Assembly (NCBI GenBank): GCA_028279725.1
Contig: JANQNE010000010.1
Coordinates: 62,001 to 126,000 of the forward strand
Reading direction: 5' to 3'
Length of the DNA: 64,000 bases
Source of the DNA: Candidatus Nanoarchaeia archaeon
GTDB taxonomy: Archaea; Nanobdellota; Nanobdellia; Woesearchaeales; JANQNE01
Below the pieces are notes generated by a model. It saw only the letters and a list, made by a program, of their open reading frames with translations, made no database searches and had not been told where the DNA came from. This document shows, in pieces, positions 42,535-59,513 of the stretch (the stretch's first letter is position 1; each line of letters opens with the position of its first letter). Position numbers and translations under genes: made by a program.

Positions 42535-44008
42535 TTATACAAAAAAGGCATTCAGAGGAGCAGGCATAGTATTTATAACAGGAGTATTGACTGCATTCTT
42601 TGCCTACCTTATCAGGATTTTTCTGGCCAGAAGCCTATCTCCTAATGACTTTGGTCTTTTTTATGCAATATTCACTTTCTTGATATTTCTTTTGATCTTC
42701 AGAGATATAGGCCTTGGCACAGCTCTGGTAAGATTTATTCCAAAATATAATGTAAGAAAAGATTATTCTAAGATCAAGACACTAGTTTTATCTTCTTTAT
42801 TATTTCAATTTATATCATCTTTAATTATGGCAGGAGTTCTTATACTGATCTCATCTTTATTAGCTAAGCATTATTTTAAGGTAGAGATTTCTTCTCCAAT
42901 CCTTCAGCTATTCACCTTATACATATTCACATCATTACTTTTCCTGAATGTAAGACACTTATTGAGAGCTTTTCAGAACATATTCTGGTTCTCAATCGCA
43001 GAGATAATAAGAGATATATCTTTCCTAGTAATAACATTAATGTTCTTCACTACTGGTTGGCAGATATTTGGTGCTGTTCTTGGTTTTATACTCTGTAATC
43101 TAGTCGCATTCTTGATATTACTGTTTCCAGCCTCAAAATATTTCTTTATTTTTAAGCATAAGACAAAAGACTTCTGGAAAACAACCAAACAGCTTTTTCA
43201 GTTCGGAATACCTGTTATATTTACAGGAATAGGAGAGAAAGTGATCTCTTACATTGATGTATTAATACTGACTTACTTTGTTTCTTTGACAGCAGTTGGA
43301 ATATACAACATAATTATGCCTACAGCAATGGTATTCTTATTTTTAGCAAGGTCAGTATCATCTGTTTTATTGCCTATGATATCAGAATTGTGGGAGAAGA
43401 AAGACATGAAGAGAATATCTGCCGGATTTAGGTTGATCTACTCTTATTCTTTTGTGATAACTATCCCGGTCTTATTTACCGCATTTACATTTTCAGATAT
43501 ATTGATAAGATTATTCTTTGGCAATGAATATGTTTCAGCTACACTGGCTTTCAAGATATTGCTAGTCGGCGTCTTATGTTATATTGTAGCCCAGGTCAAT
43601 CATTCAGCACTGTCAGGCATAGGAAAGCCAAAAGAAGCGACTAAAATAATACTGGTAATAGCTGTCATAAATATACTGCTAAATTTCATCTTAATACCTC
43701 ATTTCAAGCTCACTGGTGCTGCAATAGCAACAGCAGTTAGTTATGTTATAGCTTTAGTAATATCTACTCTAAGGCTGGTGAAATTTATCAAAGTAGCGCC
43801 ACCTTGGCTAAATTGGCTGAAGATATTGTTCTCAGGAGCAGTATTCATCTCAGTAATCTATCTGATAAAAGGGATACTAATCTTAAATCCTTGGGTAGAG
43901 ATGGCCATAAGCCTAATGGTGGCAGGAACAGTATATCTTGCTTTAGTATTTGCAATAAAAATAATTGAACTCAAAGAATTAAAATTACTTGTCAAACGCA
44001 TACTCTAA
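42527..44008 (+). CDS. Wzx-like oligosaccharide flippase (MOP superfamily)
   Basis: A 493-aa protein with about 14 TM segments, the size and topology of the Wzx/RfbX polysaccharide transport family. The first helix region GAGIVFITGVLTAFFAYLIRIFLARSLSPNDFGLFYAI is typical, as is the duplicated half beginning FWKTTKQLFQFGIPVIFTGIGEKV. It should flip polyprenyl-linked oligosaccharides to the outer face before AglB or GT-C transfer. It is the last gene of the plus-strand operon from 39695 and overlaps the convergent kinase gene by 24 bp. Confidence 0.92.
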   Translation: MTNYTKKAFRGAGIVFITGVLTAFFAYLIRIFLARSLSPNDFGLFYAIFTFLIFLLIFRDIGLGTALVRFIPKYNVRKDYSKIKTLVLSSLLFQFISSLIMAGVLILISSLLAKHYFKVEISSPILQLFTLYIFTSLLFLNVRHLLRAFQNIFWFSIAEIIRDISFLVITLMFFTTGWQIFGAVLGFILCNLVAFLILLFPASKYFFIFKHKTKDFWKTTKQLFQFGIPVIFTGIGEKVISYIDVLILTYFVSLTAVGIYNIIMPTAMVFLFLARSVSSVLLPMISELWEKKDMKRISAGFRLIYSYSFVITIPVLFTAFTFSDILIRLFFGNEYVSATLAFKILLVGVLCYIVAQVNHSALSGIGKPKEATKIILVIAVINILLNFILIPHFKLTGAAIATAVSYVIALVISTLRLVKFIKVAPPWLNWLKILFSGAVFISVIYLIKGILILNPWVEMAISLMVAGTVYLALVFAIKIIELKELKLLVKRIL

Positions 44009-44761
44009 TCTTTTATTTAATATATCAAGAACTTCTTTCTTAGTCTTGCTTAGTTTTTTTGATTCTACTTTCTCTGCTCTCACTTTCTTTAGAAGCGCTT
44101 TATAGAGTTTGAATTTTATACTAAAATAGCTGCTATCATGCTCATTCTTCCTTTTCTGCGCAGTCTTCGTATCAACATCTAGATACATCAGTAGGCCTGG
44201 CTTTGGAATTATCCACCTATATAGTTTTGGAAAAAAGCATTGTTTTTTGTAGCTCATATGTACTAATTCATCATAAAACCATCTGTCTGCAACAATAACT
44301 CTGCCCAAAATATAATTTGGGATTATTCTGAAAAAATAGATCCAAAGAACACCAAATAAAAATGCAGCTTGTCTTAATGAAGAACTAAAAAATCCAGAAT
44401 TTTTCCTTAAATTTATCTCCTTGTTCATTTTCTTGGATCTTTTAACAACTAGATTCAATGGAGATGCAGTTGGCAGATGAAGATATTTTACCTTAAACTT
44501 ATTCTTTTTTAGAAAATCGACAACATTCTTTGCCTGAGTACTTTTCCCGGAACCATCCAGCCCGATAAATGAGATTATTTTTGGAGTTCTAAAGAATCTA
44601 AAACCTCCATCCTTTCCTTTCAGTCTTCTTTTTACTTTTCTTCTAACTCCTAATATGTCATAAGCGCATACACAAAGCCTTTTCCCGAATACTGGCTTTG
44701 TAAACCATTCACAAAATAGGTAACACATCCATTTCTTCCACCAAGGACTTTTAACTGCCAT
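43985..44761 (-). CDS. Thymidylate-kinase-like P-loop kinase in the glycan island
   Basis: A 258-aa P-loop kinase. Walker A is FIGLDGSGKST (about 65-75), then AKNVVDFLKKNKFKVKYLHLP, a DR(W/Y)-type motif in VIVADRWFYDE (the DRY/DRF site of dTMP kinases) and a LID-like segment. An unusual N-terminal extension of about 60 residues contains WWKKWMCYLFCEWF and further cysteines. Two hydrophobic stretches (about 118-150) could dip into the membrane. True dTMP kinases are shorter. Proteins like this recur in polysaccharide clusters, where the substrate is unclear; a lipid or sugar kinase role is possible. It overlaps the GT4 gene upstream by 11 bp. Confidence 0.75.
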   Translation of the reverse strand: MAVKSPWWKKWMCYLFCEWFTKPVFGKRLCVCAYDILGVRRKVKRRLKGKDGGFRFFRTPKIISFIGLDGSGKSTQAKNVVDFLKKNKFKVKYLHLPTASPLNLVVKRSKKMNKEINLRKNSGFFSSSLRQAAFLFGVLWIYFFRIIPNYILGRVIVADRWFYDELVHMSYKKQCFFPKLYRWIIPKPGLLMYLDVDTKTAQKRKNEHDSSYFSIKFKLYKALLKKVRAEKVESKKLSKTKKEVLDILNKRLEYAFDK

Positions 44762-45884
44762 TTACTAGTCTCCTGTATATTTTAATAAATTCTTTTGCAA
44801 TAACTCCAACATCAAAATTTCTTGATTTTTTATATGCATTATCAGTTAATCTCTTTGCTAGACTTTTATCGCTCAAAACTATGCTGATTTTTTCAGCAAT
44901 TTCTTTGATATCACCAGGTCTTGTCATCAAGACATCTTTCCCAGGTTCAACAATTTCCCTTAATTCAGGAAGATTACTGGTGACTACAGGTGTTTTACAA
45001 GCCATAGCCTCCAACAGACATGAAGGATTCCCTTCAGTCGCAACCAGGTTCTTATAAGGTAAAGCAACAACATCAGCCATATTTACATACTCAACTACAT
45101 TTATATCTTTTTTTATTAATTTAGCGTTTTTAATCTGTTCTATCTCTTTAAAAATATGTTCATACTTTCTAAGAACATTTAGCTTCCTTGGAGCTATTAT
45201 AAAAAAGACATTTGGAACTTTTTTACTGATAAAAGGGATGGCTTTTATAAGGTATTTAAGACCTTTTTCTTCCCATATCCCTCCATAATAGAAAACAATC
45301 TTCTCACCACCATACTCATATTTCTTTTTTATATTTTCTTTATTTAAAGGAACGAATCTCTTCAAGTCTATATTGGATCTTATTACCTTTATCTTGCTTT
45401 TTTTAACTCCTTCATTCTTCAATCTCTCAGCAAATATTTTTGTAGGAACAGTAACAACATCATTAAAGTTCAATACACAATAAAACTGCTTTCCAATAAC
45501 ACTCCTTGAATAAGATTTCATAGTGTGTATTGTCTTAACATCCTTCAAGATGATCTTGGCCATAAGATTCTTAAGGGACAATACAGGAGCAGCGCTGAAA
45601 TTATGTATGATATCGAACTTAATTTTTAGCCTTCTTTCCAAATCCCTTATGGTTAAAGAAGGAGAAATCAATCTGTTTATCTTAAGAAAATTGTAAGTTG
45701 GATTTGTTCTATAAACAGGAACACCCTCAATCTTTTCATACTTAAGAAGTCCTTTCTCACTATTGCAGATTACGACAACTTTATTTCCTAGTTTAATAAG
45801 CCTTTTTGCAAGATCTATTATTGTCAGATAAGTAGCTTCCTTCCAATTCTTAAAAGTAATCTCCGAGATCAACGCAATATTCAT
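44751..45884 (-). CDS. GT4 family glycosyltransferase
   Basis: A 377-aa GT-B-fold enzyme. The acceptor-side N-domain starts MNIALISEITFKNWKEATYLTIIDLAKRL, and the donor-side domain has KIVFYYGGIWEEKGLKYLIKAIP, VVALPYKNLVATEGNPSCLLEAMACKTPVVTSNLPELREIV with the EX7E region. A TATA-like TTTATAAAT upstream on the minus strand (about 45911-45919) suggests that transcription restarts here after mtnA. Sugar specificity unknown. Confidence 0.9.
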   Translation of the reverse strand: MNIALISEITFKNWKEATYLTIIDLAKRLIKLGNKVVVICNSEKGLLKYEKIEGVPVYRTNPTYNFLKINRLISPSLTIRDLERRLKIKFDIIHNFSAAPVLSLKNLMAKIILKDVKTIHTMKSYSRSVIGKQFYCVLNFNDVVTVPTKIFAERLKNEGVKKSKIKVIRSNIDLKRFVPLNKENIKKKYEYGGEKIVFYYGGIWEEKGLKYLIKAIPFISKKVPNVFFIIAPRKLNVLRKYEHIFKEIEQIKNAKLIKKDINVVEYVNMADVVALPYKNLVATEGNPSCLLEAMACKTPVVTSNLPELREIVEPGKDVLMTRPGDIKEIAEKISIVLSDKSLAKRLTDNAYKKSRNFDVGVIAKEFIKIYRRLVNGS

Positions 45885-45939: not shown

Positions 45940-47034
45940 CTATTTATGTTCAGGATAATGTTCTAGTACATCCTTTTCTTCAGCCTTCATTATGCCTCTT
46001 TCTGTAATCAATCCCGTGATAAGCCTAGAAGGAGTAACATCAAAAGCAAAGTTAGTTGCAGGGCTGTCTTTTGGTGTCAAAAGGACCTTTTTTATCTCAC
46101 CATCATGAAGGCCTTGTATATATTTTACTTCTTCCTCTCCTCTCTGTTCTATAGGAATCTCCTTCACACCATCTCTTATCTTCCAGTCAAAAGTAGAAGA
46201 AGGTAATGCCACATAAAAAGGAACATTATTGTCTTTTGCAGCTAATGCTTTAAGGTATGTTCCTATCTTATTTGCAACATCTCCAGTATATGTTGTCCTG
46301 TCTGTTCCGACTATCACCATATCGACTAGACCATGCTGCATCAGATGTCCACCGACATTATCTGGAATGACTGTGTGAGGGACGCCATGCCCGTTCAGCT
46401 CCCATGCTGTCAGCCTTGCTCCCTGGTTTCTTGGTCTGGTCTCATCAACCCAGACATGAACTTTTATCCCCTTCTCAAATGCAGCATATATGGGAGCAGT
46501 AGCAGATCCATAATCTACAAAAGCCAGCCATCCAGCATTGCAGTGTGTAAGTATATTGACAGGCTCACCATTCTTCTTTTTGCTTATTTCTTCTATTATC
46601 TTTAGTCCATATTCACCTAGTCTTTTACAGTATTCAGCATCTTCATCAGCTATCTCGTTTGCAGTCTTCAAAGCAACATTTATCCTCTCTTCATTAGAGT
46701 CTGCTTTTTTTATCTTATCAAGCTGCCTTTCAACAGCCCAGGCAAGATTTACTGCAGTAGGTCTTGTAGCTTTTAGCTTTTCACCTGTTTCCTTCAAGAA
46801 ATCATCCTCTGTTGATTCTAAAGCTGCGATATACATGCCATAGCCTGCAGTTGCCCCTATCAGGCCAGCACCCCTTACATGCATATCTCTTATCGCAGTT
46901 GCAACATCATCTACAGTAGTAAGATCTTCTATAACAAACTTATGAGGTAATGGCCTTTGATCGATAATCTGGATTACTTTATCATCTCCTTCTTTAACCC
47001 AGATAGTCCTGTAATGTTTGCCATCTATATTCAT
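45940..47034 (-). CDS. mtnA: MtnA-like sugar-1-phosphate isomerase (methylthioribose-1-phosphate isomerase family)
   Basis: A 364-aa member of the eIF2B-like isomerase superfamily. MtnA marks are clear: YRTIWVKEGDDKVIQIIDQRPLP at the N-terminus, AIRDMHVRGAGLIG, TAVNLAWAVERQ, and the catalytic Cys in NILTHCNAGWLA (about 177). Then come VWVDETRPRNQGARLTAWEL, the catalytic Asp in VGTDRTTYTGDVANKIGT (about 256), and PFYVALPSSTFDW with IPIEQR. The family converts methylthioribose-1-P, or deoxyribose-1-P analogues, to the ketose-1-P. The usual RGAPAIG loop reads RGAGLIG here, so the substrate may differ. GGTG precedes the ATG. It lies 13 bp after the RuBisCO-like gene and is co-transcribed with it. 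Confidence 0.85.
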   Translation of the reverse strand: MNIDGKHYRTIWVKEGDDKVIQIIDQRPLPHKFVIEDLTTVDDVATAIRDMHVRGAGLIGATAGYGMYIAALESTEDDFLKETGEKLKATRPTAVNLAWAVERQLDKIKKADSNEERINVALKTANEIADEDAEYCKRLGEYGLKIIEEISKKKNGEPVNILTHCNAGWLAFVDYGSATAPIYAAFEKGIKVHVWVDETRPRNQGARLTAWELNGHGVPHTVIPDNVGGHLMQHGLVDMVIVGTDRTTYTGDVANKIGTYLKALAAKDNNVPFYVALPSSTFDWKIRDGVKEIPIEQRGEEEVKYIQGLHDGEIKKVLLTPKDSPATNFAFDVTPSRLITGLITERGIMKAEEKDVLEHYPEHK

Positions 47035-47047
47035 GATTTACACCAAA

Positions 47048-48373
47048 TTAATCAAAATGAGTTCCGAAGTATTCTATTGCTTTCTTCAGTTCAGGATGTT
47101 TTTTAGCATACTCCTTTATATCAATTCCATCCTTATAAGCTTCCCATGCCTGGATTATGCTCTTGGTTCCTGCTTCAGGCCCATCAGGATGCGAATAGAT
47201 ACCATGTCCGACTATATATCCTACATTTGAAGTTCCAGCAGCATCAAGTATCCTTGCCATATTATCAGCCCTATTCCCCCCACCTAAGAAAGGCATACTT
47301 TGTTTAAGGTTCCCTAAAGGTTCCTGACAGCTTTTTATTTCATTGTCTATATCTGTTGGATACTCCATCAATACTGATTTTGGAGAAGGTATGACTAAAT
47401 TATCTATACCTGCCATCCTATGCAGTTTTGCCAGCAGCTTATGGCTAACTCCATGGAAAGGGACTTTTGCATTGCATCCAGTAAGATCAAAATGAGAACA
47501 GACCGGAACATCAGAAAAATCAGTTACCATCCTTGCTGCAGAAAGTCCTATTGCCATAGCATTGACCATTATACTCTCAGCTCCAGCAGCAATTGCCATA
47601 CTGTAATTTCTTTTTAGCTTAGATACATCCGAAGTTATATTAACTTGATATATTGTCCTTTTTCCAGTCTCTTTTTCTGCCTTATCTAATCCTTTAATAA
47701 CAGCTCTTACTCTTTGTATAAGACGAGAATCAGGAATATCTGACAAAAGCTCATCATCTTTTACAACATCCGCACCGCCCAGCGCACTCTTGTAAGCAAG
47801 ATCAGCAAACATATCTGAAGGACAAAGGCTAGGTTTTATAACTCCTATCACTATAGGTCTTACTTCTTTGATGCCCAATAGATGCCTCAATCCTTCTGGT
47901 CCGCTTCTAGGACCTCTGAATGTATCAAGATATGGTTTTGGAAACTCAATATCTTCCAGTTTTATAGAATTGAATTGATCAAGGTAATGTATCTCTCCTG
48001 CAGCTGCAGTAAGGAGTGCTGGGATACTTTCTCCAAAATTTCTAACAGGTATTGCAATCTTTGTCATAACTCTAGTGTATTTGTCAGACTTCATATCTGG
48101 ACTGACTAGAGGAAGATCTGGAGTATCCGATTCTTCGATAGACTCATAACTAAGAAGTTTTGCACCAAACCTGTCTGTGATTTCTTTGGTTTCACCTTCA
48201 ACAGCTCCCACATCGCCCCAACCGGCACTAGATGTACTCTGAGATTTACAGAGCTGTATTGCAGCCTCTTTGATATCTTTAAGATGTGTTTGAAACTTAT
48301 AAATACATGTGATATATTCTTCTGGATTGTCTACGCCTTCTAAAGCCACAAAACGTTCATCATATTCACTCAT
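47048..48373 (-). CDS. RuBisCO-like protein with form-IV-type active site (not a carboxylase)
   Basis: A 441-aa RuBisCO-fold protein. Conserved enolisation residues are present: the Lys of VIKPSL, and the carbamylation motif GGADVVKDDE (K, D, D/E). Carboxylase residues are altered: SSAGW replaces STGTW, GEIH replaces GNIF (Asn to Glu), SHFDLTG replaces HRAGH, loop 6 reads IPSPKSV instead of GTxGxGKLEG, and GHGIYSHPDG replaces GGGxxGHPDG. As I recall, the PSP loop is shared with Bacillus MtnW, the diketo-methylthiopentyl-1-P enolase. With mtnA downstream, a tautomerase or isomerase acting on the MtnA product is inferred. The ATG at 48373 is chosen for its GGGGGTG site; the upstream ATG is too close to it. 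Confidence 0.85.
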   Translation of the reverse strand: MSEYDERFVALEGVDNPEEYITCIYKFQTHLKDIKEAAIQLCKSQSTSSAGWGDVGAVEGETKEITDRFGAKLLSYESIEESDTPDLPLVSPDMKSDKYTRVMTKIAIPVRNFGESIPALLTAAAGEIHYLDQFNSIKLEDIEFPKPYLDTFRGPRSGPEGLRHLLGIKEVRPIVIGVIKPSLCPSDMFADLAYKSALGGADVVKDDELLSDIPDSRLIQRVRAVIKGLDKAEKETGKRTIYQVNITSDVSKLKRNYSMAIAAGAESIMVNAMAIGLSAARMVTDFSDVPVCSHFDLTGCNAKVPFHGVSHKLLAKLHRMAGIDNLVIPSPKSVLMEYPTDIDNEIKSCQEPLGNLKQSMPFLGGGNRADNMARILDAAGTSNVGYIVGHGIYSHPDGPEAGTKSIIQAWEAYKDGIDIKEYAKKHPELKKAIEYFGTHFD

Positions 48374-48417
48374 TATCATACACCCCCTGGTTATAACTAA
48401 AATAGGTTACGGAATTA

Positions 48418-48426
48418 TTTATAAAT
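48418..48426 (-). promoter_or_regulatory. TATA box of the RuBisCO-like/mtnA transcript
   Basis: The near-symmetric TTTATAAAT predicts a start near 48395 on the minus strand and a leader of about 22 nt containing the GGGGGTG ribosome site. The two genes can therefore be expressed apart from the kinase upstream. Confidence 0.5.
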
Positions 48427-48435
48427 CTATCGCTA

Positions 48436-49470
48436 TTATTTATATATAGACCTACCATTAAATATAAAATCAACTGCAGTCTTTCTTAACTCATCCACTC
48501 TGGATTCAGGTATATGGGGTTCTAAAGGGACTGCATCAATCCTATTGAGGATACCCATCCCAACAAAGAAAGAAATATTGTTCTTTGTAAATTGGACGAA
48601 TTCTTTATCAGCACCTTCTTTATCTAGATAAGAGAGATAAGCCTTTACAAATCCATCCATGAGCGAATCTAGCTCCTTCTGATAGTCCTCTCTGATTATC
48701 TTTATCACATATATGTTAGAGACAAAGAAACCGACATCATAAGAGGCCATTCCGTCACCCATAAACTCAAAATCACAAAGCCCCATCCCTTTAAATCCAG
48801 GCCAGATGAATATGTGCTTCGGAGACAGGTCTGCATTGATTAGGCAGAAAAATTTCTTATTTTCTTCATATAGCTCCTCAGACTTTTTCCTTATTATTTC
48901 TTTTTGCTCTTCATTTAGTTTTTCACAAGAAAAATATGTCCTAAAATCATAGAATCTCTTATTTACTTCTGCTTCATCCTTGACACGTTCTTTATAGTCT
49001 CCATTTCTTAAGGTTCTTACATGCAGCTGTGCAGTCATATTTGCGACAATGTCTAAGATATCGCTTGTTTTTTTAAGGTCAAAATCAGATAATAGCAGCT
49101 CTTTCAATATAGTTCCTTTTTTAGAGATGTCTTCCATTATCAGAACTTTTCCTTTTTCATCGGAGTGAAATATCTCAGGGACGCAGATTGCAACATCATC
49201 ATCGAATATATCTTTCATATATCTTATAGATCCAGACTCTCTTTCAAACCTATAAGGAGAGATTCCTATCTTATCTATCGCTTCAGTGGGCTTCCTCGGG
49301 CTATCACTGTAGAATTTTAGGAAATACAGATTATCTTTGGTTATGATTTCATACACATAGTTTATATTGCCAATATCGACAAGATGGACATCTGTATTTT
49401 GACCAGGAAAAAGATTTTTTTCCTTTATATATTCTCTTACACTTTCCACATTAATTAGCTGATTCATCAT
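48436..49470 (-). CDS. mtnK: MtnK-like sugar kinase (APH/methylthioribose kinase family)
   Basis: A 344-aa kinase of the aminoglycoside/choline kinase superfamily that matches 5-methylthioribose kinase in order and wording of motifs. These are KNLFPGQ near residue 20, a glycine loop VDIGNINYVYEI (about 32-43), the ATP-site Lys in YFLKFYS, VPEIFHSDEKGKVLIMEDIS, the catalytic Asp in INADLSPKHIF (usually HGDL), the metal site LCDFEFMGDG, and YDVGFFVSNIY. It would phosphorylate C1 of a ribose-like sugar, the substrate form for MtnA. An upstream TTG is in frame; ATG 49470 is preferred. It overlaps the nucleotidyltransferase gene by about 20 bp, so a LicA-like role serving that enzyme is an alternative. 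Confidence 0.75.
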   Translation of the reverse strand: MMNQLINVESVREYIKEKNLFPGQNTDVHLVDIGNINYVYEIITKDNLYFLKFYSDSPRKPTEAIDKIGISPYRFERESGSIRYMKDIFDDDVAICVPEIFHSDEKGKVLIMEDISKKGTILKELLLSDFDLKKTSDILDIVANMTAQLHVRTLRNGDYKERVKDEAEVNKRFYDFRTYFSCEKLNEEQKEIIRKKSEELYEENKKFFCLINADLSPKHIFIWPGFKGMGLCDFEFMGDGMASYDVGFFVSNIYVIKIIREDYQKELDSLMDGFVKAYLSYLDKEGADKEFVQFTKNNISFFVGMGILNRIDAVPLEPHIPESRVDELRKTAVDFIFNGRSIYK

Positions 49471-50167
49471 CAAATTCCTTTACTATGGATTTAGACTCTT
49501 CTAAATCTTCTTTTGTGTCAACCTCCACACCTTTATGGAAGAAATAAGGAGTAAACTCAACTCCATCCCTTATCATTATATTCAGAGCATCTATCAGACG
49601 ATGCTTCTTTTTCCCATCCTCTAGAATATTTTTGACAACCTCAAACAACCTTTTTGATGGCTCAGAACTGAACTTGATTATCATTCCAAATTCTCCAACA
49701 GCCTCCTCACAAGGTATGTTTTCCTCCATCTTATGGATCTTTCCATTATTGACTACAACTTTTACATCCTCCTCACAACATTTCTTTTTCTTGACAGCAA
49801 CTACAACATCTCCTTTTGTACCAAGGAATTCTGGAAATATTTTAGGATTAAATAGGACATCCCCTGTAGACAATACAAATTCTTCTCCAAATACACTTTC
49901 TTTTGCATACCAGAGTGAACGAAGTATTCCTTCAGAACTAAACAAAGGGTTATCTAGATACTCAGCATCACCCTTTATTTCTTTGATTATATCTTCTTTT
50001 TTATGTCCTACAACTATGTATATGTCATTAACTCCATTAGACTTAAACGAATCAACAATTCTCCTTATGATGGACTTTCCATTTATTTCTAGAGCACATT
50101 TATTCTTAGAATAAGTAATCTCTTTTAGCCTCGTCCCCCTACCAGCAGCAAGAATAACTGATTTCAT
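49451..50167 (-). CDS. Nucleotidyltransferase (cytidylyltransferase-like, LicC/IPCT type)
   Basis: A 238-aa GT-A-like NTP transferase: VILAAGRGTRLKEITYSKNKCALEINGKSIIRRIVDSF at the N-terminus, a SEGILRSLWYAKESV segment and LSTGDVLFNP as the metal-binding Asp region. The short length and the SxNKCALEINGK wording resemble cytidylyltransferases for phosphocholine or inositol-phosphate more than sugar-1-P thymidylyltransferases. The gene is followed by the APH-type kinase (overlap) and preceded, 1 bp away, by a CDP-alcohol phosphatidyltransferase. Together these would suit a kinase, CTP-activation and CDP-alcohol transfer route. The alcohol is unknown. Confidence 0.8.
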   Translation of the reverse strand: MKSVILAAGRGTRLKEITYSKNKCALEINGKSIIRRIVDSFKSNGVNDIYIVVGHKKEDIIKEIKGDAEYLDNPLFSSEGILRSLWYAKESVFGEEFVLSTGDVLFNPKIFPEFLGTKGDVVVAVKKKKCCEEDVKVVVNNGKIHKMEENIPCEEAVGEFGMIIKFSSEPSKRLFEVVKNILEDGKKKHRLIDALNIMIRDGVEFTPYFFHKGVEVDTKEDLEESKSIVKEFDDESAN

Positions 50168-50168
50168 C

Positions 50169-50816
50169 TTAACCCTTGTGTTTTTTTAGATATCTATATT
50201 GGAAAAATACCATTGCTAAAAAATAACCAATATACCCTATGGCAAAGAAATATAATGTGAATTCTGGAACTCCTGCAAATGTAGTTATTATCAATATAGG
50301 AGGAATCAATGTAACTCCAAAAATCCGCATATACCATTTCTTGTTTTTGATCATCTTAACTTTCTTTTCACTTCTCGAGGCAATTGAGTAAAAACCATGG
50401 CTCAATATAACGCTCAAGGAGTAAAATCCCAACAGAACAGAACCAGAAACAATAGTCCAAAAATTGTTGAAAGTGAATATCGATACTATAAAAAATATGA
50501 CATATCCAGGATAACCTGTAACTTTGTCATACCATTCTCCCAAACCGCTAGAAATCCCCTTGATTCTGGCAATCTTTCCATCTAGTGCATCAAAAAAATG
50601 ATGCAGCATCAGAAAACCAGCTGCAAAGAAAAATCTGTGATATAGAAGTGAACCTGCAGCAAGAAGAGAGAGTAAAAAAGCAAATACAGATATCCTATTT
50701 GGAGTGATCCAGCTAAACCTGGATAAAAAGATAGCAGTTGGGACGGTAAATGGATTATAGAAACTTCCTATCAACTCCTGTTTTCCTCTTGGAACAAGAT
50801 TTTTTGGTATTTTCAC
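50169..50816 (-). CDS. CDP-alcohol phosphatidyltransferase family protein with altered motif
   Basis: A 215-aa membrane protein with about six TM segments. The family motif D-x2-DG-x2-AR-x8-G-x3-D-x3-D is present as DALDGKIARIKG...GEWYDKVTG (about 68-92). The first three aspartates are kept, but the fourth, thought to be the catalytic base in this family, is glycine. Archaeal members make archaetidylinositol, archaetidylserine or di-inositol phosphate. The change may mean altered chemistry or loss of activity. It forms a tight operon with the cytidylyltransferase-like gene and the kinase. Confidence 0.82.
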   Translation of the reverse strand: MKIPKNLVPRGKQELIGSFYNPFTVPTAIFLSRFSWITPNRISVFAFLLSLLAAGSLLYHRFFFAAGFLMLHHFFDALDGKIARIKGISSGLGEWYDKVTGYPGYVIFFIVSIFTFNNFWTIVSGSVLLGFYSLSVILSHGFYSIASRSEKKVKMIKNKKWYMRIFGVTLIPPILIITTFAGVPEFTLYFFAIGYIGYFLAMVFFQYRYLKKHKG

Positions 50817-50828
50817 GATAATGACCTC

Positions 50829-51338
50829 TTACTTCACTAAAACGACTCTAAGATTCAATGGTTGAAACATCCTAAGGAAAGAATTTTCATAAACATTCGG
50901 AAATAATTTAGCAAACCATCCGATAAAGAACCTCCAGAAAGCATACCTTGCAAACTCAAATTTTTTGGATATCTTCTCAAATCCAAAATCAAAATAATAG
51001 TTTCTCTGGTTTCCTTTGACAAAATAATCAAATGTGTTGTACGCAAAAAAGTTCTTATGGGTTGGATCTGCATATGCACTTGATTCTAGAAAATGAGGCA
51101 CTTTTATCCTCAATATTCCTCCTTTTTTCAGGATTCTGTGCAGCTCCTTCAAGACTTTTGGCATATCATTGACATGTTCCAGTATGTCATATGCCATTAT
51201 CTCATCAAAATAATCATCTTTGAAAGGCAGTTTTTTATTTACATCACACACAACATCAACACCTTCTAATTTAACCAGATCTAGATTAACATAACCTTCC
51301 CTTATATCTTTCCCGCAACCGAGGTTTAATTTCTTCAT
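50829..51338 (-). CDS. Class I SAM-dependent methyltransferase
   Basis: A 169-aa methyltransferase: KLNLGCGKDIREGYVNLD (motif I), FDEIMAYDILEHVND, VLKELHRILKKGGILRIKVPH (motif around strand 5). This short type (Methyltransf_11-like) is common in surface-polysaccharide clusters. It lies between a GT4 gene (1 bp away) and the CDP-alcohol transferase, so the substrate is probably a sugar or lipid-linked glycan. The C-terminal part is aromatic-rich (YYFDFGFEKISKKFEFARYAFWRFF). Confidence 0.87.
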   Translation of the reverse strand: MKKLNLGCGKDIREGYVNLDLVKLEGVDVVCDVNKKLPFKDDYFDEIMAYDILEHVNDMPKVLKELHRILKKGGILRIKVPHFLESSAYADPTHKNFFAYNTFDYFVKGNQRNYYFDFGFEKISKKFEFARYAFWRFFIGWFAKLFPNVYENSFLRMFQPLNLRVVLVK

Positions 51339-51339
51339 T

Positions 51340-52359
51340 TTATAGTATCTTGATTATAGCATCAGCAAAACCATTTATATCTTTCGGTTTTACTAGTATT
51401 CCTTCCTTGACAACCTCAGGGTGAGGTCCGATATCAAAAGCGACAACAGGCTTACCACAGGCCTGGGCTTCAACAACAGTCATATTGAATCCTTCCCATA
51501 ATGTTGCCGTTGTATAGACATTACATGCAGCATAATATTGAGGAAGATCTTCATCTGAGACAAAACCTGCAAATATTATAGATTCAGGATTTACTTTATT
51601 TGCAATTCTTTTCAATCTTTTAGCATACTCATCAAATGTTTCCTTACCAGCGATCAATAATTTAGCACTAGGGATTTTCTTAAGCACAAGATTGAATGAT
51701 TCTATCAAAAGATCAATCCCTTTGTGGGGGGATATCCTTCCGACATACAAACACACAGGATCATTTCCTAGTTTATATTTGACCCTTATCTTATCTCCAG
51801 AAACCCCCTTATGGAATCTTTCAACATCAATCTTATCATAGACTATACTGCTTTCAACTCCAGTCTCTTTCTTCAAAACTCCTCGCAGATATTTACTGAT
51901 AGAAACAGCTTCATCAGCATTCTTTACGCTTCTATTTGTCAAAAATCTAAATAATTTCATATATGTTTTCTCAACAAACCCGCTGAATAATTCAGGATCA
52001 GCTACACCATGGTTATGATATCTGTACTTCACACCAAATTTCTTCTTTGCATAAGCTCCGATAAGATTCATAGGATAAAGATGACTTATTACAAGATCAT
52101 AATCTTTCAGCATTTTTCCGTATTTTTTGATCTTAAATATATCGAAAAAGAAAAATATCCTGTATATCCTCTCCAGAAAAGAACTCTTAGGCATTCCGAT
52201 CTCAACTACATTTACCCCTTTTGAAGGCTGCATTCCGGCCTTTAGACAGAATATAGAAACTTCATTCCCTTCTTTAACCAGATCTCTTGCTTGAAGCTCA
52301 ACAACCCTATCTATCCCGCTGAATGCAGAGTATGTTGGAGTTAACAACGCAATCTTCAT
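51340..52359 (-). CDS. GT4 family glycosyltransferase
   Basis: A 339-aa GT-B-fold transferase: MKIALLTPTYSAFSGIDRVVELQARDLVKEG at the N-terminus, VCLYVGRISPHKGIDLLIESFNLV as donor domain start, LLIAGKETFDEYAKRL, and YTTATLWEGFNMTVVEAQACGKPVVAFDIGPHPEVV with the EX7E motif. The protein ends slightly early compared with many GT4 enzymes, just after FADAIIKIL. It overlaps the next upstream methyltransferase gene by 4 bp. Confidence 0.9.
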   Translation of the reverse strand: MKIALLTPTYSAFSGIDRVVELQARDLVKEGNEVSIFCLKAGMQPSKGVNVVEIGMPKSSFLERIYRIFFFFDIFKIKKYGKMLKDYDLVISHLYPMNLIGAYAKKKFGVKYRYHNHGVADPELFSGFVEKTYMKLFRFLTNRSVKNADEAVSISKYLRGVLKKETGVESSIVYDKIDVERFHKGVSGDKIRVKYKLGNDPVCLYVGRISPHKGIDLLIESFNLVLKKIPSAKLLIAGKETFDEYAKRLKRIANKVNPESIIFAGFVSDEDLPQYYAACNVYTTATLWEGFNMTVVEAQACGKPVVAFDIGPHPEVVKEGILVKPKDINGFADAIIKIL

Positions 52360-53093
52360 TTTTTACACCTTATGGATAATGTTTGTGAAAAAATACTAAG
52401 TGGGGTCGCAGTCAGTATCCTATCCATACAATTTATGATTTTATAAAATCTATTGAATATCTTTCCCATAAGTCTGCTTATCTTGTTGATCTGGCCAGGT
52501 ATTAGGAATTCTCTCTTTATTTTTATATCTTTAAACCCAGCCTTTTTTAGCTTATTTTTTACAGAACCATCATACAGCCTGTCATGATGGCCTATCTTCA
52601 TCATCCTTGCCATAAATTCATTGAACGAATATCTGTTAGGTAGGCTAAATATCAGATTAAGCCCGCCAGATTTTAAGATTCTATACATCTCTCTCAACAG
52701 ATCCTTATCATCATCCACATGCTCCATAAGGCCAAAACTGACTAAACAGTCTATACTGCCATCTTTATACTTTAGGTTTGTAACATCATCTGCCAGAAAA
52801 CTACACCCAAAATCCTTAAACCTTTCCCAGGTATCTCTTCTTTCAATATCAATTCCAGTTATATTTATATCAGGTCTAAGCATCTTAAGCAATGCAGTCG
52901 TATGTCCAACCCCGCACCCAACATCAAGAACAGTAGCACCTTTAGGTATAAGTCTTGCACATAACTTTAATCTTCTTTCAAATCTATAGCATGTAAGCTT
53001 GCTCCCTATGTGATAAGCCCTGGTTGGATCCTTTTTCCTATATTCCTCAAATATGCTCTGCACCTTTTTATTATCGTAGATCATTTTAAACAC
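52356..53093 (-). CDS. Class I SAM-dependent methyltransferase
   Basis: A 245-aa methyltransferase of the Methyltransf_11/25 type: ATVLDVGCGVGHTTALLKML (about 54-73), GIDIERRDTWERF, SFGLMEHVDDDKDLLREMYRILKSGGLNLIFSLPNRYSFN. An N-terminal helical part of about 50 residues may bind the acceptor, and a C-terminal hydrophobic stretch may touch the membrane. It overlaps GT4 genes on both sides, so it probably methylates the glycan they build. Confidence 0.88.
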   Translation of the reverse strand: MFKMIYDNKKVQSIFEEYRKKDPTRAYHIGSKLTCYRFERRLKLCARLIPKGATVLDVGCGVGHTTALLKMLRPDINITGIDIERRDTWERFKDFGCSFLADDVTNLKYKDGSIDCLVSFGLMEHVDDDKDLLREMYRILKSGGLNLIFSLPNRYSFNEFMARMMKIGHHDRLYDGSVKNKLKKAGFKDIKIKREFLIPGQINKISRLMGKIFNRFYKIINCMDRILTATPLSIFSQTLSIRCKK

Positions 53094-54217
53094 AATTTCT
53101 TATAAACTTTAAGATAATTCTCAACATTATCCTTCAACTCAAACTTCTTCAATTTACTTTTTATAAACTTCTTCCTATACGCCATCTCGACCCCTTCTGC
53201 AATCCCATCAGGACTCTTAACTTTGACCAAAACATGATTTCCACTCACAACTTCAGGCAATGAAGTAGTATTGCTTGCAACAACAGGCTTGCCCATAGCA
53301 CACGCTTCAGCAGCTGCAAAACCAAATCCTTCTGCCAATGAAGGAACTACAACACAGTCTGCAGCCTTAATATAAGCAGGCAGTTCTTTATAGGAAACAG
53401 GATCATGTAAAATAACATTATCCTCAACACCTAATCTTTTAATCAGCTTTTGTATCTCTTTATATTGTTTCAATGTGTTCTTATCTTTGCTCACAATAGC
53501 CAGTAATTTTGAATTCTTTACTTTATTAGAAATAATTGGAACTGCTTTTATCAGATACTCGAGACCCTTGCTTACTCCAGGCCTACCTGTAAATACATAT
53601 AAGAAATTCTTTTCAACACCTAACATCTTTCTTATCTTCTTTCCGTCATATTTTTTAGGATTCCAATGGCTGTAATCTACTCCATTATACACAACTTCCA
53701 CTTTTTCTTTCTTAACTCCAACCCCTAACAATTGTTTCTGGGTAGATTTAGATACACACACATACTTATCAAAATTAAGCATATAGATCATCCTTTCCAG
53801 AATATCATGGACCTTTCCGCTAAACCAACTCATTTCAGTAAGTTTATTCCATTTCTTGATCCATACTTCATGAATGGTTATCAAACTCTTCTTCCTAGTT
53901 AGCTTAGAAGCAACCCATGCAGGAAACGCTCCGTTAAATGTAGTTGTATGTATAAGATCAGCCTTCTTAGCCAACTTGACAACTTTTGGAATAGAAAGAA
54001 AAGTAAACCAATATCTACTATGAAAACAATTAATTCTATGTACTTTAACTCCGTTTATTATCTCAAATTGTTTTGTCCCTTTCAATCTATGCGTGACTAT
54101 ATTAACCTCATGACCTGATTTAGCCAAACCTTCACAAAGATTCCTAAAAACTACTTCAACCCCTCCGATATGAGGTATATAATTCTCTAATACAAATAAT
54201 ATCTTCATTTTATGCAC
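53081..54217 (-). CDS. GT4 family glycosyltransferase
   Basis: A 378-aa GT-B-fold transferase: MKILFVLENYIPHIGGVEVVFRNLCEGLAKSGHEVNIVTH, NFLYVFTGRPGVSKGLEYLIKAVP, VVVPSLAEGFGFAAAEACAMGKPVVASNTTSLPEVV (EX7E region). An alternative start three codons in (MKILF) agrees better with relatives. It overlaps the DMT gene upstream by 8 bp and the methyltransferase downstream by 13 bp, which implies tight translational coupling within this minus-strand operon. Confidence 0.92.
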   Translation of the reverse strand: MHKMKILFVLENYIPHIGGVEVVFRNLCEGLAKSGHEVNIVTHRLKGTKQFEIINGVKVHRINCFHSRYWFTFLSIPKVVKLAKKADLIHTTTFNGAFPAWVASKLTRKKSLITIHEVWIKKWNKLTEMSWFSGKVHDILERMIYMLNFDKYVCVSKSTQKQLLGVGVKKEKVEVVYNGVDYSHWNPKKYDGKKIRKMLGVEKNFLYVFTGRPGVSKGLEYLIKAVPIISNKVKNSKLLAIVSKDKNTLKQYKEIQKLIKRLGVEDNVILHDPVSYKELPAYIKAADCVVVPSLAEGFGFAAAEACAMGKPVVASNTTSLPEVVSGNHVLVKVKSPDGIAEGVEMAYRKKFIKSKLKKFELKDNVENYLKVYKKLCLK

Positions 54218-54563
54218 CTAGTCCAATTAATGAAACACCCATTGCTATTATAAGTATTCCTATCCACTTGGCAAGATTCATCCTTTCTTTCAGCAAAAAT
54301 ATAGAATATATGCAGACCCACACATAAGATAATCCGACCAAAGGATACAATACAGATAATTCTCCAAACTTCAATGCAGGAATAAACAAAACAGTACCAA
54401 CACCATATATCATCACACCAATTATGAGGAATTTATTCTTATATATTGTAGAAAAATCCTTCAACTTTATGCTGCTGGATCCTTTTTTCAGATAGATTGG
54501 TCCAAATCCTCCGATCAACCCAGCAATAACCACAAGTACAATTGCAAATAATTGAGTTTCCAT
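54210..54563 (-). CDS. Small four-TM DMT/EamA-type transporter subunit (ArnE/ArnF-like), second of a pair
   Basis: A 117-aa protein with four TM helices, each half about 55 residues: METQLFAIVLVVIAGLIGGFGPIYLKKG, then LIIGVMIYGVGTVLFIPALKFGELSVLYPLVGLSYVWVCIYSIFLLKERMNLAKWIGILIIAMGVSLIGLG. That is the SMR/EmrE layout without the EmrE-type intramembrane glutamate in helix 1. The start at 54563 is chosen because an earlier ATG would overlap the upstream gene by 40 bp and add a poor N-terminus. Its twin is just upstream. ArnE/ArnF pairs flip polyprenyl-phosphate sugars, and the glycan context supports that role. Confidence 0.8.
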   Translation of the reverse strand: METQLFAIVLVVIAGLIGGFGPIYLKKGSSSIKLKDFSTIYKNKFLIIGVMIYGVGTVLFIPALKFGELSVLYPLVGLSYVWVCIYSIFLLKERMNLAKWIGILIIAMGVSLIGLGA

Positions 54564-54564
54564 T

Positions 54565-54951
54565 TTATATAGCCTCAGTAAATTCACTGATTTTTTTATC
54601 CTCACTTCCTAAATTTATTACGATGATGCCTACTATTATCAAAAAAACACCGATCCATCTCAAAAAACTGATGGTTTCTCCAAAAAAATACATTGATCCT
54701 AGAGTCACCCATACAAAACTGGTCGTTATTATGGGATAAAGGACAGTTACATCCCCTCCGCGGAAAGCAACAATAAGCAATACAGCTCCCATCACATACA
54801 AGACAATTCCAAAGATCAGATTCCAGTTTGTTATTATTGAAATAAGATTTAGACCTAGTTTTTCTGCTCCTTTTTTATATAATATTTGAGCAGAAGAAGT
54901 AAATAATGTACATAATACAACTAAAGATACTGCCCATAACTTTGTTTTCAT
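54565..54951 (-). CDS. Small four-TM DMT/EamA-type transporter subunit (ArnE/ArnF-like), first of a pair
   Basis: A 128-aa protein, four TM helices: AVSLVVLCTLFTSSAQILYKKGAEKLG, IFGIVLYVMGAVLLIVAFRGGDVTVLYPIITTSFVWVTLGSMYFFGETISFLRWIGVFLIIVGIIVINLGS. The GxxxVLYP(L/I)...(F/Y)VWV motif is shared with the neighbouring subunit, so the two are paralogues. It ends 1 bp before the partner start, suggesting equimolar synthesis and a heterodimer. Proposed role is flipping of lipid-phosphate-linked sugar for outside GT-C enzymes; other small-molecule export cannot be excluded. Confidence 0.8.
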   Translation of the reverse strand: MKTKLWAVSLVVLCTLFTSSAQILYKKGAEKLGLNLISIITNWNLIFGIVLYVMGAVLLIVAFRGGDVTVLYPIITTSFVWVTLGSMYFFGETISFLRWIGVFLIIVGIIVINLGSEDKKISEFTEAI

Positions 54952-54989
54952 TTGTTATGAATGCCCCACATATTATTTAGGTTTTTGAT

Positions 54990-55017
54990 AGGGTATTCAT
55001 AATACTAAAAATACCCT
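54990..55017 (-). terminator. Possible stem-loop between DUF2304 and the DMT pair
   Basis: AGGGTATT (54990-54997) and AATACCCT (55010-55017) form an exact 8-bp inverted repeat with a 12-nt loop in the 73-bp gap. It could be an mRNA processing point, an attenuating hairpin or a binding site. No T-tract follows in the direction of transcription, so a strong terminator is unlikely. Confidence 0.35.
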
Positions 55018-55024
55018 TGGTATT

Positions 55025-55354
55025 TTATTTTGCTCTTTTTATCGCAACTTCCCTGACTACTCTTTCTACTTTTTTCTGGGTCTTCCTAACAACCCCATAT
55101 GTATAAAAATTAGTAAATATCAGAAACATAAACCCAAGTATTATGAAAAAATCCATAGTCCTTGCGATATTAAGAGACTCTAGTATTGGATCAAGTATCC
55201 GTGGGATTAAAGTCACGATCAAAAATACAATCCATACAACACTCCAAAATCCTGTTTCATTAATAGTAAATTCTTTCCTCTTGAAATGTAAAAATGTTAA
55301 ATATAACATAAATAATCCAAATATAACACCTAATAGCTGTATTCCTAATATCAT
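55025..55354 (-). CDS. DUF2304 family membrane protein
   Basis: A 109-aa protein with three TM segments: ILGIQLLGVIFGLFMLYLTFLHFKRKEF, FWSVVWIVFLIVTLIPRILDPI, and DFFIILGFMFLIFTNFYTYGVVRKTQKKVE. The F.R.E...E..FW...W and LGI.R..D....LG....F patterns are those of DUF2304. This family regularly accompanies DPM1-like GT2 genes, as here, and probably forms a complex with the transferase. I chose the ATG at 55354 because GGAGGT lies 7 nt upstream; an ATG five codons earlier overlaps the GT2 gene. Its C-terminus is basic and cytoplasmic. Confidence 0.85.
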   Translation of the reverse strand: MILGIQLLGVIFGLFMLYLTFLHFKRKEFTINETGFWSVVWIVFLIVTLIPRILDPILESLNIARTMDFFIILGFMFLIFTNFYTYGVVRKTQKKVERVVREVAIKRAK

Positions 55355-56016
55355 CCTAATAACCTCCATTTAACCATATTAAAGACAATTTTAACACCAT
55401 CCAGAACAGTAGTCCCTTTATACCTGTCTGAGTATATCGTTTGGATTGGAATTTCTCTGTACTTCAAATTATTCTTGCCGACATTGGCTATCATCTCACT
55501 CTCCATACTATAGTCATTTGCATTCCATCTGATTCTTCTGTATGCCTTGGATGTAAAAGCCCTATATCCTGACTGAGTATCTTTAAGGTCAACACCATAT
55601 AATATCTTTGTAACAAAATTGATAAAATTATTCCCGAATTTCAGCACAAATGGCATATGTCCTGTAAATCTTCTATATCCAAAGACAATATCAACACCTT
55701 CAAGACTCTCGATAAAATTAGGAATCTCTTTTGGCTCATGCTGCCCATCTGCATCAATTACTATGATTGTTTTCGCTCCATTAAGTAGGGCATAATCACA
55801 GCCCGTCTTAAGTCCAGCACCTTTCCCAAGATTAACAACATGCCTCAAAACTTTTATCTTTTTTTGCAATCCAACATCATATGTATCATCTTTAGACCCA
55901 TCATCGACCAAGACAACATTCCTGCTGAATCTCTTAACTTCATCAATTACTTTTCCAACTCTTTTTTCCTCATTATATGCAGGTATAATCACCCAGACAT
56001 CTTTACTCAGTTTCAT
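55351..56016 (-). CDS. DPM1-like GT2 glycosyltransferase
   Basis: A 221-aa GT2 enzyme without TM segments: VWVIIPAYNEEKRVGKVIDEV, VVLVDDGSKDDT, GKGAGLKTGCDYAL, the metal-binding VIDADGQHEPKEI, KDTQSGYRAF and the late YREIPIQTIYSDRYKGTTVLDGVKI. It resembles AglJ and dolichol-phosphate mannose/glucose synthases, which attach a sugar to dolichyl phosphate. It overlaps aglB by 14 bp upstream and DUF2304 downstream, forming an AglB, GT2 and DUF2304 group. The membrane attachment is probably supplied by DUF2304. Confidence 0.9.
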   Translation of the reverse strand: MKLSKDVWVIIPAYNEEKRVGKVIDEVKRFSRNVVLVDDGSKDDTYDVGLQKKIKVLRHVVNLGKGAGLKTGCDYALLNGAKTIIVIDADGQHEPKEIPNFIESLEGVDIVFGYRRFTGHMPFVLKFGNNFINFVTKILYGVDLKDTQSGYRAFTSKAYRRIRWNANDYSMESEMIANVGKNNLKYREIPIQTIYSDRYKGTTVLDGVKIVFNMVKWRLLG

Positions 56017-59000: not shown

Positions 59001-59422
59001 TCCTTAAGAGATTCTCTGTCCTTCTCTAATGCATCCTCAAGTTGAGCAGCAATAAGAACATTCTTATTCTCATCAGGTAGATTTGGGTATTGTTGATTAA
59101 TTTGTGTTGATATTTGAGATCTGTAATAGTTTCCAATAGTACTGTCAGCCCATGTATCAGTCATAGGCAGGTAGACTGGTTGTATCCTGAAGAATACAGA
59201 TAATATTATCGGAATCAGCAAAAGAAGCCAAACCTTGTTCTTTGAGAAAAATCCGCTAACCTTGTTCCAGTCAACTTTTACTTCATCATCCTTATCTTCT
59301 TTTACAAAATTACTAGTCTTATGTCTTGATTTCTTTCCAAAACCCTTAAACCAGTTTTTGATCTTACCAAAATCGATAGATATCTCATCATCTTCTTCTC
59401 TATTTCCCACTTTTTCTACCAT
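56003..59422 (-). CDS. aglB: AglB/STT3 oligosaccharyltransferase with C-terminal parvulin domain
   Basis: A 1139-aa catalytic subunit that transfers lipid-linked glycans to Asn in N-x-S/T sequons outside the membrane. A charged cytoplasmic N-tail (about 1-60) is followed by 13 or so TM segments. The first-loop acidic motif is PMTDTWADS and the second is AIDPYFWYAHARN. The hallmark WWDFGHW lies at about 659-665. A globular region of about 330 residues follows, then an extra domain at about 996-1105: a parvulin/PpiC rotamase (RASHILI...YSDGPSGPRGGDLGWF...MVPAFEKAAF...FGYHIIKL). The acidic tail ends NLTETNETE, which itself holds sequons. The ATG at 59422 is chosen for its GGGGG site; an upstream TTG is in frame. 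Confidence 0.95.
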   Translation of the reverse strand: MVEKVGNREEDDEISIDFGKIKNWFKGFGKKSRHKTSNFVKEDKDDEVKVDWNKVSGFFSKNKVWLLLLIPIILSVFFRIQPVYLPMTDTWADSTIGNYYRSQISTQINQQYPNLPDENKNVLIAAQLEDALEKDRESLKEQKKQLSQQYKAGLQDENGHTYLLAIDPYFWYAHARNYVNNGFMGDEIVDGKESFSLRNGREPMRVVTIPFNSYVGAWAYKVLSVFNKDLSLMRVMFFIPLVIVTLAIIPAFFIAKRVGGNLAGLFAGIIVATNSALLGRTPAGFADTDGYNILFPLMITWMIFLSIESKDNLKRGIFASIGGIFVGLYSITWGGWWYVFDFILATLGVYLIYLLIRKHYTKVKESFTQVKNLLMSTGVFFVGSFLFVGIFQGFDAFLTFLRGPLSVIVLKDVAVTTVWPNVLTTVAEFNETTLGNIIPQMGGIIFFMIALIGILIISFKDEMGKINWSYVVSFAAYYLVLIIGVSSKNIIILSDISRDILSRPLLFILLLGLPVAVGLIKSKSSDVKYSIFIIIWVMGTTYGFTKGVRFAILMVPGFAIAFGICISFLFLHASRWFAKEFNVNKNVTNSIFIILVVLLFIAVPVQSEKISNCSLSGDKSFLCQTQKIAKNEMPSMDDAWYNSLKAIGDESEDAIITSWWDFGHWFYSISERRVTFDGADQGERIHWVGKSLLVSDEKLAVGILRMLNCGQEKPPHVLEEYLDGDTVRAVDILNEIVVLDKDEAKEVLEREGLSEDEVESVLEVTHCDDLIDSYYITSEDMIRKSGVWGHFGSWDFKRASMYQNVVKKNYDEGVGILKDEFGLSQEEAETTFYEIKNNKADQWVSPWPSYASDLVSCSEEEGIIKCNHGMNFDLENGEAWADTAQGKMYPKYFVWADLDGLNKKEYSENIIKMQNGRDMAAALVPTGGGNYRSFLMDGLLADSVFTRLFFFKGHGSKYFKLFKYDQGITGVDIYVWKVDWDEGDPIIMDELLGEPEIRASHILICGEGDVRCTANRTKEEAKVIADDLLQRVNETNFEELAIEYSDGPSGPRGGDLGWFGKGRMVPAFEKAAFALEEVNKSTVMVETDFGYHIIKLTGKKSALEIAKEKQELEKKIEEFKEEQAEEEIVENLTETNETE
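56120..56437 (-). other. Parvulin-type PPIase domain encoded within aglB
   Basis: This segment codes for about 105 residues with the parvulin landmarks: N-terminal ASHILI, the helix KEEAKVIADDLLQRV, FEELAIEYSDGPSGPRGGDLGWFGKGRMVPAFEKAAFAL, and the C-terminal TDFGYHIIKLTGK. The histidines of the ASHIL and GYHII strands, both typical of active PpiC/PrsA/Pin1-type sites, are present. The loop after ASHILI holds two cysteines (CGEGDVRC) that could form a disulphide, which suits an extracytoplasmic location. Confidence 0.88.
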
Positions 59423-59513
59423 TAACAACAACCCCCTGATAAATAGTGTATTAGTCGAGAAAAACTCCCTGGCTTTTTAAATATTTTGCTTTCTAAGAGT
59501 ATATTAAATCCCT

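Follow-up and report, generated by a model that had tools for sequence, protein, structure and literature searches.

What a relative of RuBisCO does among genes for surface glycosylation is the question raised by a locus of a Candidatus Nanoarchaeia archaeon, contained in a 64,000-nucleotide stretch of contig JANQNE010000010.1 (positions 62,001 to 126,000, forward strand; assembly GCA_028279725.1; hereafter the window). An earlier note on this DNA had placed an MtnK-like kinase, a RuBisCO-like protein (RLP) and an MtnA-like isomerase in adjacent genes, and had proposed either a short salvage route for methylthioribose (MTR) or 5-deoxyribose or a pathway feeding a sugar to the surface glycans. 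Three minus-strand open reading frames lie exactly there, and they are the downstream portion of a larger five-gene block in a glycosylation directon. We put at about 50% the probability that the locus is an anabolic module whose product is an unusual, nucleotide-activated sugar or polyol destined for surface glycans or for lipid headgroups, and in which the RLP is the carbon-rearranging enzyme; the activation would most likely be CDP-linked.

The five-gene block and its conserved core

Read from 50816 to 45940, the block runs head to tail on the minus strand in the following order:

50169-50816, minus strand: CDP-alcohol phosphotransferase-like membrane protein with an altered motif (PF01066)
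49451-50167, minus strand: LicC/IPCT-like nucleotidyltransferase (PF12804, PF00483 and PDB matches)
48436-49470 from an ATG start, or to 49473 if the start is TTG, minus strand: APH-fold small-molecule kinase, methylthioribose-kinase-like (weak TIGR01767 match and predicted fold)
47048-48379, minus strand: RLP of 443 aa, near form IV-Photo (PF00016, PDB match, tree and residues)
45940-47034, minus strand: MtnA-family isomerase of 364 aa (TIGR00512 and NF004326 equivalog scores)

The first two genes are 1 bp apart, the second and third overlap by 23 bp, and gaps of 56 bp and 13 bp follow. Because the kinase gene overlaps the upstream nucleotidyltransferase gene by 23 bp and the gaps are short, the unit reaches upstream to 50816; the earlier grouping was right as to the adjacency of the trio and had missed the conserved nucleotidyltransferase and the CDP-alcohol phosphotransferase upstream of it.

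RLPs of the window type were found by profile search in 3 of 353 genomes of the order, namely the window genome and two relatives (G357 and G482) whose RLPs are 29-34% identical to that of the window. No further such RLP turned up in 371 sampled genomes of the phylum, and RLP-only searches of genome contig and viral contig collections gave no match. In all three RLP genomes the same nucleotidyltransferase family lies beside the RLP gene or one gene away, its members being 34-41% identical pairwise over their full length (E 1e-39 to 1e-53); two nucleotidyltransferases taken for comparison, the first from the window genome and the second from a relative, resemble this family only in parts of their length. 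The profile scan for RLP returned 80 more distant loci, and of the roughly 80 RLP loci belonging to other phyla none had the window's type of nucleotidyltransferase, of kinase or of MtnA in its flanks. What is conserved is the pairing of RLP and nucleotidyltransferase and not the kinase-RLP-MtnA trio, whose conservation the earlier note had named as a check: the trio is not kept in the other two RLP genomes, MtnA is linked to the RLP in the window genome only, and the MtnA genes of relatives usually lie with a class II aldolase or apart. Literature searches of a partial collection turned up no paper that places an RLP next to a nucleotidyltransferase or within a glycan locus.

The gene order in G357 is kinase, nucleotidyltransferase, RLP and RpiB-type isomerase; a LicD-family gene lies in the vicinity. 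Its kinase (L035:5964-6899) is a P-loop protein with no Pfam match, D-glycerate 3-kinase/Tda10-like by motif reading, and occupies the place held by the APH kinase in the other RLP genomes. In G482 the order is nucleotidyltransferase, HAD hydrolase, RLP, APH kinase and CDP-alcohol phosphotransferase, so that kinase and phosphotransferase recur in two RLP genomes, and the module adjoins genes for phosphoenolpyruvate (PEP) mutase and phosphonopyruvate decarboxylase, enzymes of known headgroup and glycan chemistry. The phosphonate cluster directly beside the G482 module (L155:2460-7177) comprises a PEP mutase fused to a TagD-type cytidylyltransferase, the decarboxylase and an Fe-alcohol dehydrogenase. 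The three genomes share a common logic of kinase, sugar-phosphate isomerase (MtnA in the window, RpiB in G357, the MtnA of G482 lying elsewhere), RLP, LicC/IPCT-like nucleotidyltransferase and CDP-dependent transferase (CDP-alcohol phosphotransferase in the window and G482, LicD in G357).

Proteins of the block and their setting

Judged from its sequence, the middle gene of the trio encodes an RLP and not a carboxylase. The protein matches Pfam RuBisCO_large (PF00016, E 3e-44) and meets no NCBIfam RuBisCO or RLP equivalog cut-off, scoring 208 bits against form III (TIGR03326, cut-off 497), 154 bits against MtnW (TIGR03332, cut-off 513.6) and 197.5 bits against the 3-oxo-isoapionate-4-phosphate decarboxylase OiaX (NF042437, cut-off 700); its top PDB match is the Chlorobium RLP 1tel (E 2.7e-83). 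In a tree whose MtnW, form I and IV-Photo labels were assigned from profile scores, active-site motifs and general knowledge, the window RLP, two other archaeal RLPs and form IV-Photo make up one clade (support 99/92), in which the window protein sits on a long branch beside IV-Photo, as sister or basal to it, outside the IV-Photo clade proper (100/100) and outside the MtnW and form III clades. It retains 8 of 16 RuBisCO catalytic or ligand-binding positions. The metal and enolisation lysines and acidic residues are kept (K175, K201, D203, E204, H294), N123E, K177S and G404H are changed, and the residues of second-phosphate binding and of loop 6 are gone (R295F, H327V, K334 absent). N123E is common to the window RLP, both other archaeal RLPs and the IV-Photo rows and occurs in no further row shown. 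The residue pattern agrees with an enzyme that would enolise or isomerise a ketose monophosphate, more than with a carboxylase of ribulose-1,5-bisphosphate (RuBP).

Two more specific assignments of the RLP were rejected. As an MtnW enolase it scores too low, and a clade forced with the MtnW-type rows was rejected (p-AU 0.002); plain methionine salvage with such an enolase falls with it, and of the pathway options first proposed the feeding of surface glycans is favoured. As an apionate-pathway decarboxylase of the OiaX kind it lies outside the corresponding clade and far under the cut-off.

The nucleotidyltransferase matches PF12804 and PF00483, and its profile matches to PDB include LicC (E 2e-13), PntC (1e-11), sugar-1-phosphate enzymes (2e-13) and also IPCT; it is probably a CTP:X cytidylyltransferase. 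In the making of surface glycans and lipids, phosphocholine is activated by LicC-like enzymes and aminoethylphosphonate by PntC (PMC6697681). The CDP-alcohol phosphotransferase-like protein scores 46.5 bits with PF01066 (cut-off 22), and its nearest solved structure is AF2299. The complete motif of this family is D-x2-DG-x2-AR-x8-G-x3-D-x3-D; that of the window protein is DALDGKIAR-x8-GEWYDKVTG, in which the fourth and last Asp is absent. The last Asp is absent in both RLP-linked proteins (50169-50816 of the window and L155:7226-7906 of G482), and a second CDP-alcohol phosphotransferase of G482 (L155:11730-12398) has the intact motif.

The kinase has no Pfam match and reaches only 29 bits with the MTR kinase model TIGR01767 (cut-off 275). 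In a fold search with its AlphaFold model (pLDDT 68, built with four sequences) the nine best PDB matches were all MTR kinases (E 1.9e-8 to 2.3e-6, TM about 0.6), with ethanolamine kinase, LicA and aminoglycoside kinases ranking behind them. The better fold scores of MTR kinases led us to reject a choline or inositol kinase, in keeping with the earlier assignment. The protein may be described as very divergent, a relative of MtnK by predicted fold and at most a candidate MtnK in activity. A homologue lies beside the RLP in G482 (27% identity over 329 aa, E 2e-35); a search of the 371 phylum genomes gave only two remote homologues, both without RLP.

The isomerase is, by its profile scores, a true MtnA-family protein (5-methylthioribose-1-phosphate or 5-deoxyribose-1-phosphate isomerase family), passing TIGR00512 (409 bits, cut-off 279) and NF004326 (465, cut-off 271) and not reaching the cut-off for ribose-1,5-bisphosphate (R15P) isomerase (TIGR00511, 160 bits, cut-off 314). 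It is the only MtnA found in the window genome. MtnA of this subfamily is common within the order (57-84% identity to MtnA of 19 other genomes); in 12 of these 19 relatives it is linked to a class II aldolase, fused or immediately adjacent in 10 of the 12, as in the dihydroxyacetone phosphate (DHAP) shunt (PMC10986504), and in the remainder it stands apart from one. LsrF-like class I aldolases lie near MtnA in some relatives. One protein of G482 (L193:3454-4461) holds MtnA and a class II aldolase domain together, its N-terminal part being cut at the contig end.

No class II aldolase is present in the window, as had been noted from its sequence, and none was found elsewhere in the genome (95.8% complete), in which PF00596 has no match and a profile of ten MtnA-linked aldolases gave only a partial match of E 0.085, class I LsrF-like aldolases not having been searched for. 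With this aldolase absent, the window genome is without the enzyme that usually consumes methylthioribulose-1-phosphate (MTRu-1-P), and its MtnA gene lies 13 bp from that of the RLP. The combination is suggestive but no proof, as one relative (G433, 75% complete) is likewise without a class II aldolase. A methylthioadenosine (MTA) phosphorylase is encoded elsewhere in the genome beside APRT (TIGR01694, 303 bits against 275). No cupin sulfurylase of 1-methylthioxylulose-5-phosphate (MTXu-5-P) was seen among the genes around the locus, no genome-wide search having been made.

The glycan setting first described for the trio holds: the block lies in a directon of 15 minus-strand genes (56016 to 43985, every gap at most 73 bp) that adjoins STT3 and otherwise consists of glycosyltransferases, methyltransferases and small EamA-type transporters. 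MtnA is separated from the downstream glycosyltransferase gene by 55 bp, and the latter overlaps the next gene by 11 bp. The surrounding genes are as follows:

56003-59431, minus strand: STT3 oligosaccharyltransferase of 1142 aa (Pfam), adjoining the directon
50829-56016, minus strand: upstream directon genes, encoding two methyltransferases, two GT4 proteins, two EamA-type small transporters, a DUF2304 protein and a GT2 protein
44751-45884, minus strand: GT4 glycosyltransferase, downstream in the directon (PF00534)
43985-44761, minus strand: P-loop thymidylate-kinase-like protein, downstream in the directon (PF02223)

By Pfam the STT3 protein bears a C-terminal PPIC-type (parvulin) rotamase domain, an odd fusion.

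The proposed pathway and its rivals

The pathway that we infer, as to substrate, product, direction, RLP reaction, nucleotide and acceptor, would run as follows. MTA or 5'-deoxyadenosine would be converted to a 5-substituted ribose-1-phosphate by MTA phosphorylase, or the MTRK-like kinase would make the same compound by phosphorylating free MTR or 5-deoxyribose. MtnA would isomerise it to the ribulose-1-phosphate, and the RLP would enolise or isomerise the ketose phosphate, possibly methylthio- or 5-deoxyribulose-1-phosphate. The LicC-like enzyme would activate the resulting phosphate with CTP, and its attachment would fall either to the CDP-alcohol phosphotransferase-like protein or to one of the glycosyltransferases encoded nearby. 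As MTA phosphorylase and MtnA are both present, the likeliest input would be a 5-substituted ribose-1-phosphate from by-products of S-adenosylmethionine (SAM). The RLP of Rhodospirillum rubrum isomerises MTRu-1-P to MTXu-5-P (PMC4958253), and methylthioxylose caps mycobacterial lipoarabinomannan (PMC8081860). That a RuBisCO-superfamily enzyme takes part in the synthesis of a CDP-linked methylthio- or deoxy-pentose from SAM by-products (MTA to MTR-1-P to MTRu-1-P to the RLP product), destined for archaeal glycans or lipids, is a tentative and rather doubtful extension. The general role in making a surface precursor is probably right and is held with moderate confidence, the exact chemistry with low confidence; the earlier interpretation was, on this account, right in part, the locus probably serving a surface-precursor pathway and not ordinary methionine salvage.

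Several observations weigh against a surface-precursor module of this kind. The linkage of MtnA to the RLP is confined to the window genome. The G357 kinase is non-homologous, and the RpiB of that locus would not be expected to act on methylthioribulose, so that the three genomes may not share one substrate. The window kinase looks redundant with MTA phosphorylase, the last Asp usual in CDP-alcohol phosphotransferases is missing, and CTP specificity cannot be assigned to the nucleotidyltransferase from its sequence, several kinds being similar by profile. A class I LsrF-like aldolase, a possible drain for MTRu-1-P, fell outside the aldolase searches of the genome, and the RLP cases number only three, on long branches.

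The best surviving rival, though an improbable one, is salvage of MTA or 5-deoxyribose and nothing more, in which MTA phosphorylase or the kinase, MtnA and the RLP, as an R. rubrum-like isomerase or a substitute for the aldolase, return carbon and sulfur to metabolism and the glycan genes are incidental. The MtnA score, the MTA phosphorylase next to APRT, the lack of a detected class II aldolase, the MTRK-like fold of the kinase and the action of known RLPs on MTRu-1-P (PMC4958253) all agree with it. However, what stays with the RLP in three genomes is a nucleotidyltransferase and no salvage enzyme, G482 keeps an aldolase-fused MtnA and nevertheless has, elsewhere, the RLP as well, and the cupin sulfurylase was not seen near the locus.

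Unlikely in our view is a headgroup pathway of the Kennedy or Lic type, in which kinase, LicC-like enzyme and CDP-alcohol phosphotransferase bring into activated form a small alcohol, or a phosphonate, that the RLP has made or modified, MtnA being a chance neighbour engaged in general salvage. The occurrence of that enzyme set in two genomes, the phosphonate genes adjoining the G482 module and the LicD gene near that of G357 fit such a pathway, but the kinase fold is closer to MTR kinase than to LicA or choline/ethanolamine kinase, and the only MtnA found in the genome lies 13 bp from the RLP. Still less probable is the joining of two unrelated gene sets by reshuffling of the glycan island, the RLP having a housekeeping role like that of form IV-Photo. 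Glycan islands are in general mosaics, the function of form IV-Photo is to our knowledge not established, and so few genomes of the order carry the RLP; against this, a single nucleotidyltransferase family accompanies RLPs of such low mutual identity, and the kinase is common to two RLP loci.

A CO2-fixing AMP-pathway set, in which the MtnA-like protein would be an R15P isomerase and the RLP a form III carboxylase, is very improbable; the earlier note, too, had set the trio apart from AMP metabolism. The families are related, but neither the R15P isomerase nor the form III cut-off is reached, and the RLP lacks K177, R295, H327, K334 and others and lies outside form III in the tree. An orthodox form III RuBisCO is encoded elsewhere in the genome (TIGR03326, 597 bits against 497; 16 of 16 residues), as is a protein resembling R15P isomerase, for which TIGR00511 is the top-scoring model (240 bits, under the cut-off of 314). 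Any AMP metabolism is thus probably the work of these or other genes outside the locus, for which it offers no explanation.

Comparison with known systems

Discussions of RLPs mostly treat them as enzymes of salvage or catabolism. The conserved linkage of RLP and nucleotidyltransferase in the three genomes described here hints that RuBisCO relatives can help to make cell-surface building blocks and, if the surface-precursor pathway is correct, DPANN-type archaea would be incorporating SAM waste into their cell surface. One survey read type IV proteins in metagenome bins as methionine salvage (PMC7495880); the present locus cautions against taking every archaeal RLP for such.

The nearest known relative is the form IV-Photo RLP (Chlorobium tepidum, 1tel; R. 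palustris RLP2, PDB 2qyg), the best sequence match and a member of the same 99/92 clade, which shares N123E, R295F and the loss of K334. The window RLP differs in having the loop GHG instead of GRG, in its long branch outside the 100/100 clade, in being archaeal, and in its place within a glycan operon instead of next to yjbQ or photosynthesis genes. We know of no reaction for the IV-Photo class, and the link to a headgroup-type nucleotidyltransferase is the first biochemical lead for this side of the tree. In three unrelated bacteria form IV-Photo RLPs directly follow a YjbQ-family gene (L031:5555-7290, L037:9519-11251, L043:9394-11263), YjbQ being annotated in the first, which also has idi, and recognised by sequence likeness in the other two. 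An Anaerolineae bin (G396) has two IV-Photo-like RLPs (L038:9450-11257 and L134:1489-3326), each directly beside an RpiB-type isomerase. Genes for PTS-like proteins, an aldolase and a HAD protein also lie near one of the two; the adjacency to RpiB is a possible clue to form IV-Photo chemistry.

With the MTA-isoprenoid shunt of R. rubrum the window genome shares MTA phosphorylase, MtnA and RLP functions, but the Deep-Ykr RLP of the shunt is a different class by the literature (PMC4958253), and the window RLP has a nucleotidyltransferase beside it and no cupin sulfurylase in view. With the DHAP shunt (MtnK or MTA phosphorylase, MtnA, Ald2) it shares an MTRK-like kinase and MtnA, the MtnA of relatives adjoining an Ald2-like gene; in the window genome the RLP stands in the place of the class II aldolase. 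The Lic and Pnt headgroup pathways (LicA, LicC, LicD; PepM, PntC) have in common with the modules described here a LicC/PntC-like nucleotidyltransferase and an APH-fold kinase, with LicD in G357 and PepM in G482, whereas neither an RLP nor MtnA is known to us as a component of those pathways. The mycobacterial methylthioxylose cap is a precedent for a methylthio-pentose on a surface glycan, although an RLP is not mentioned there and both organism and enzymes differ (PMC8081860). Set against these systems, the RLP itself is of a known kind, and what is new is its setting, a glycan operon with a nucleotidyltransferase as partner.

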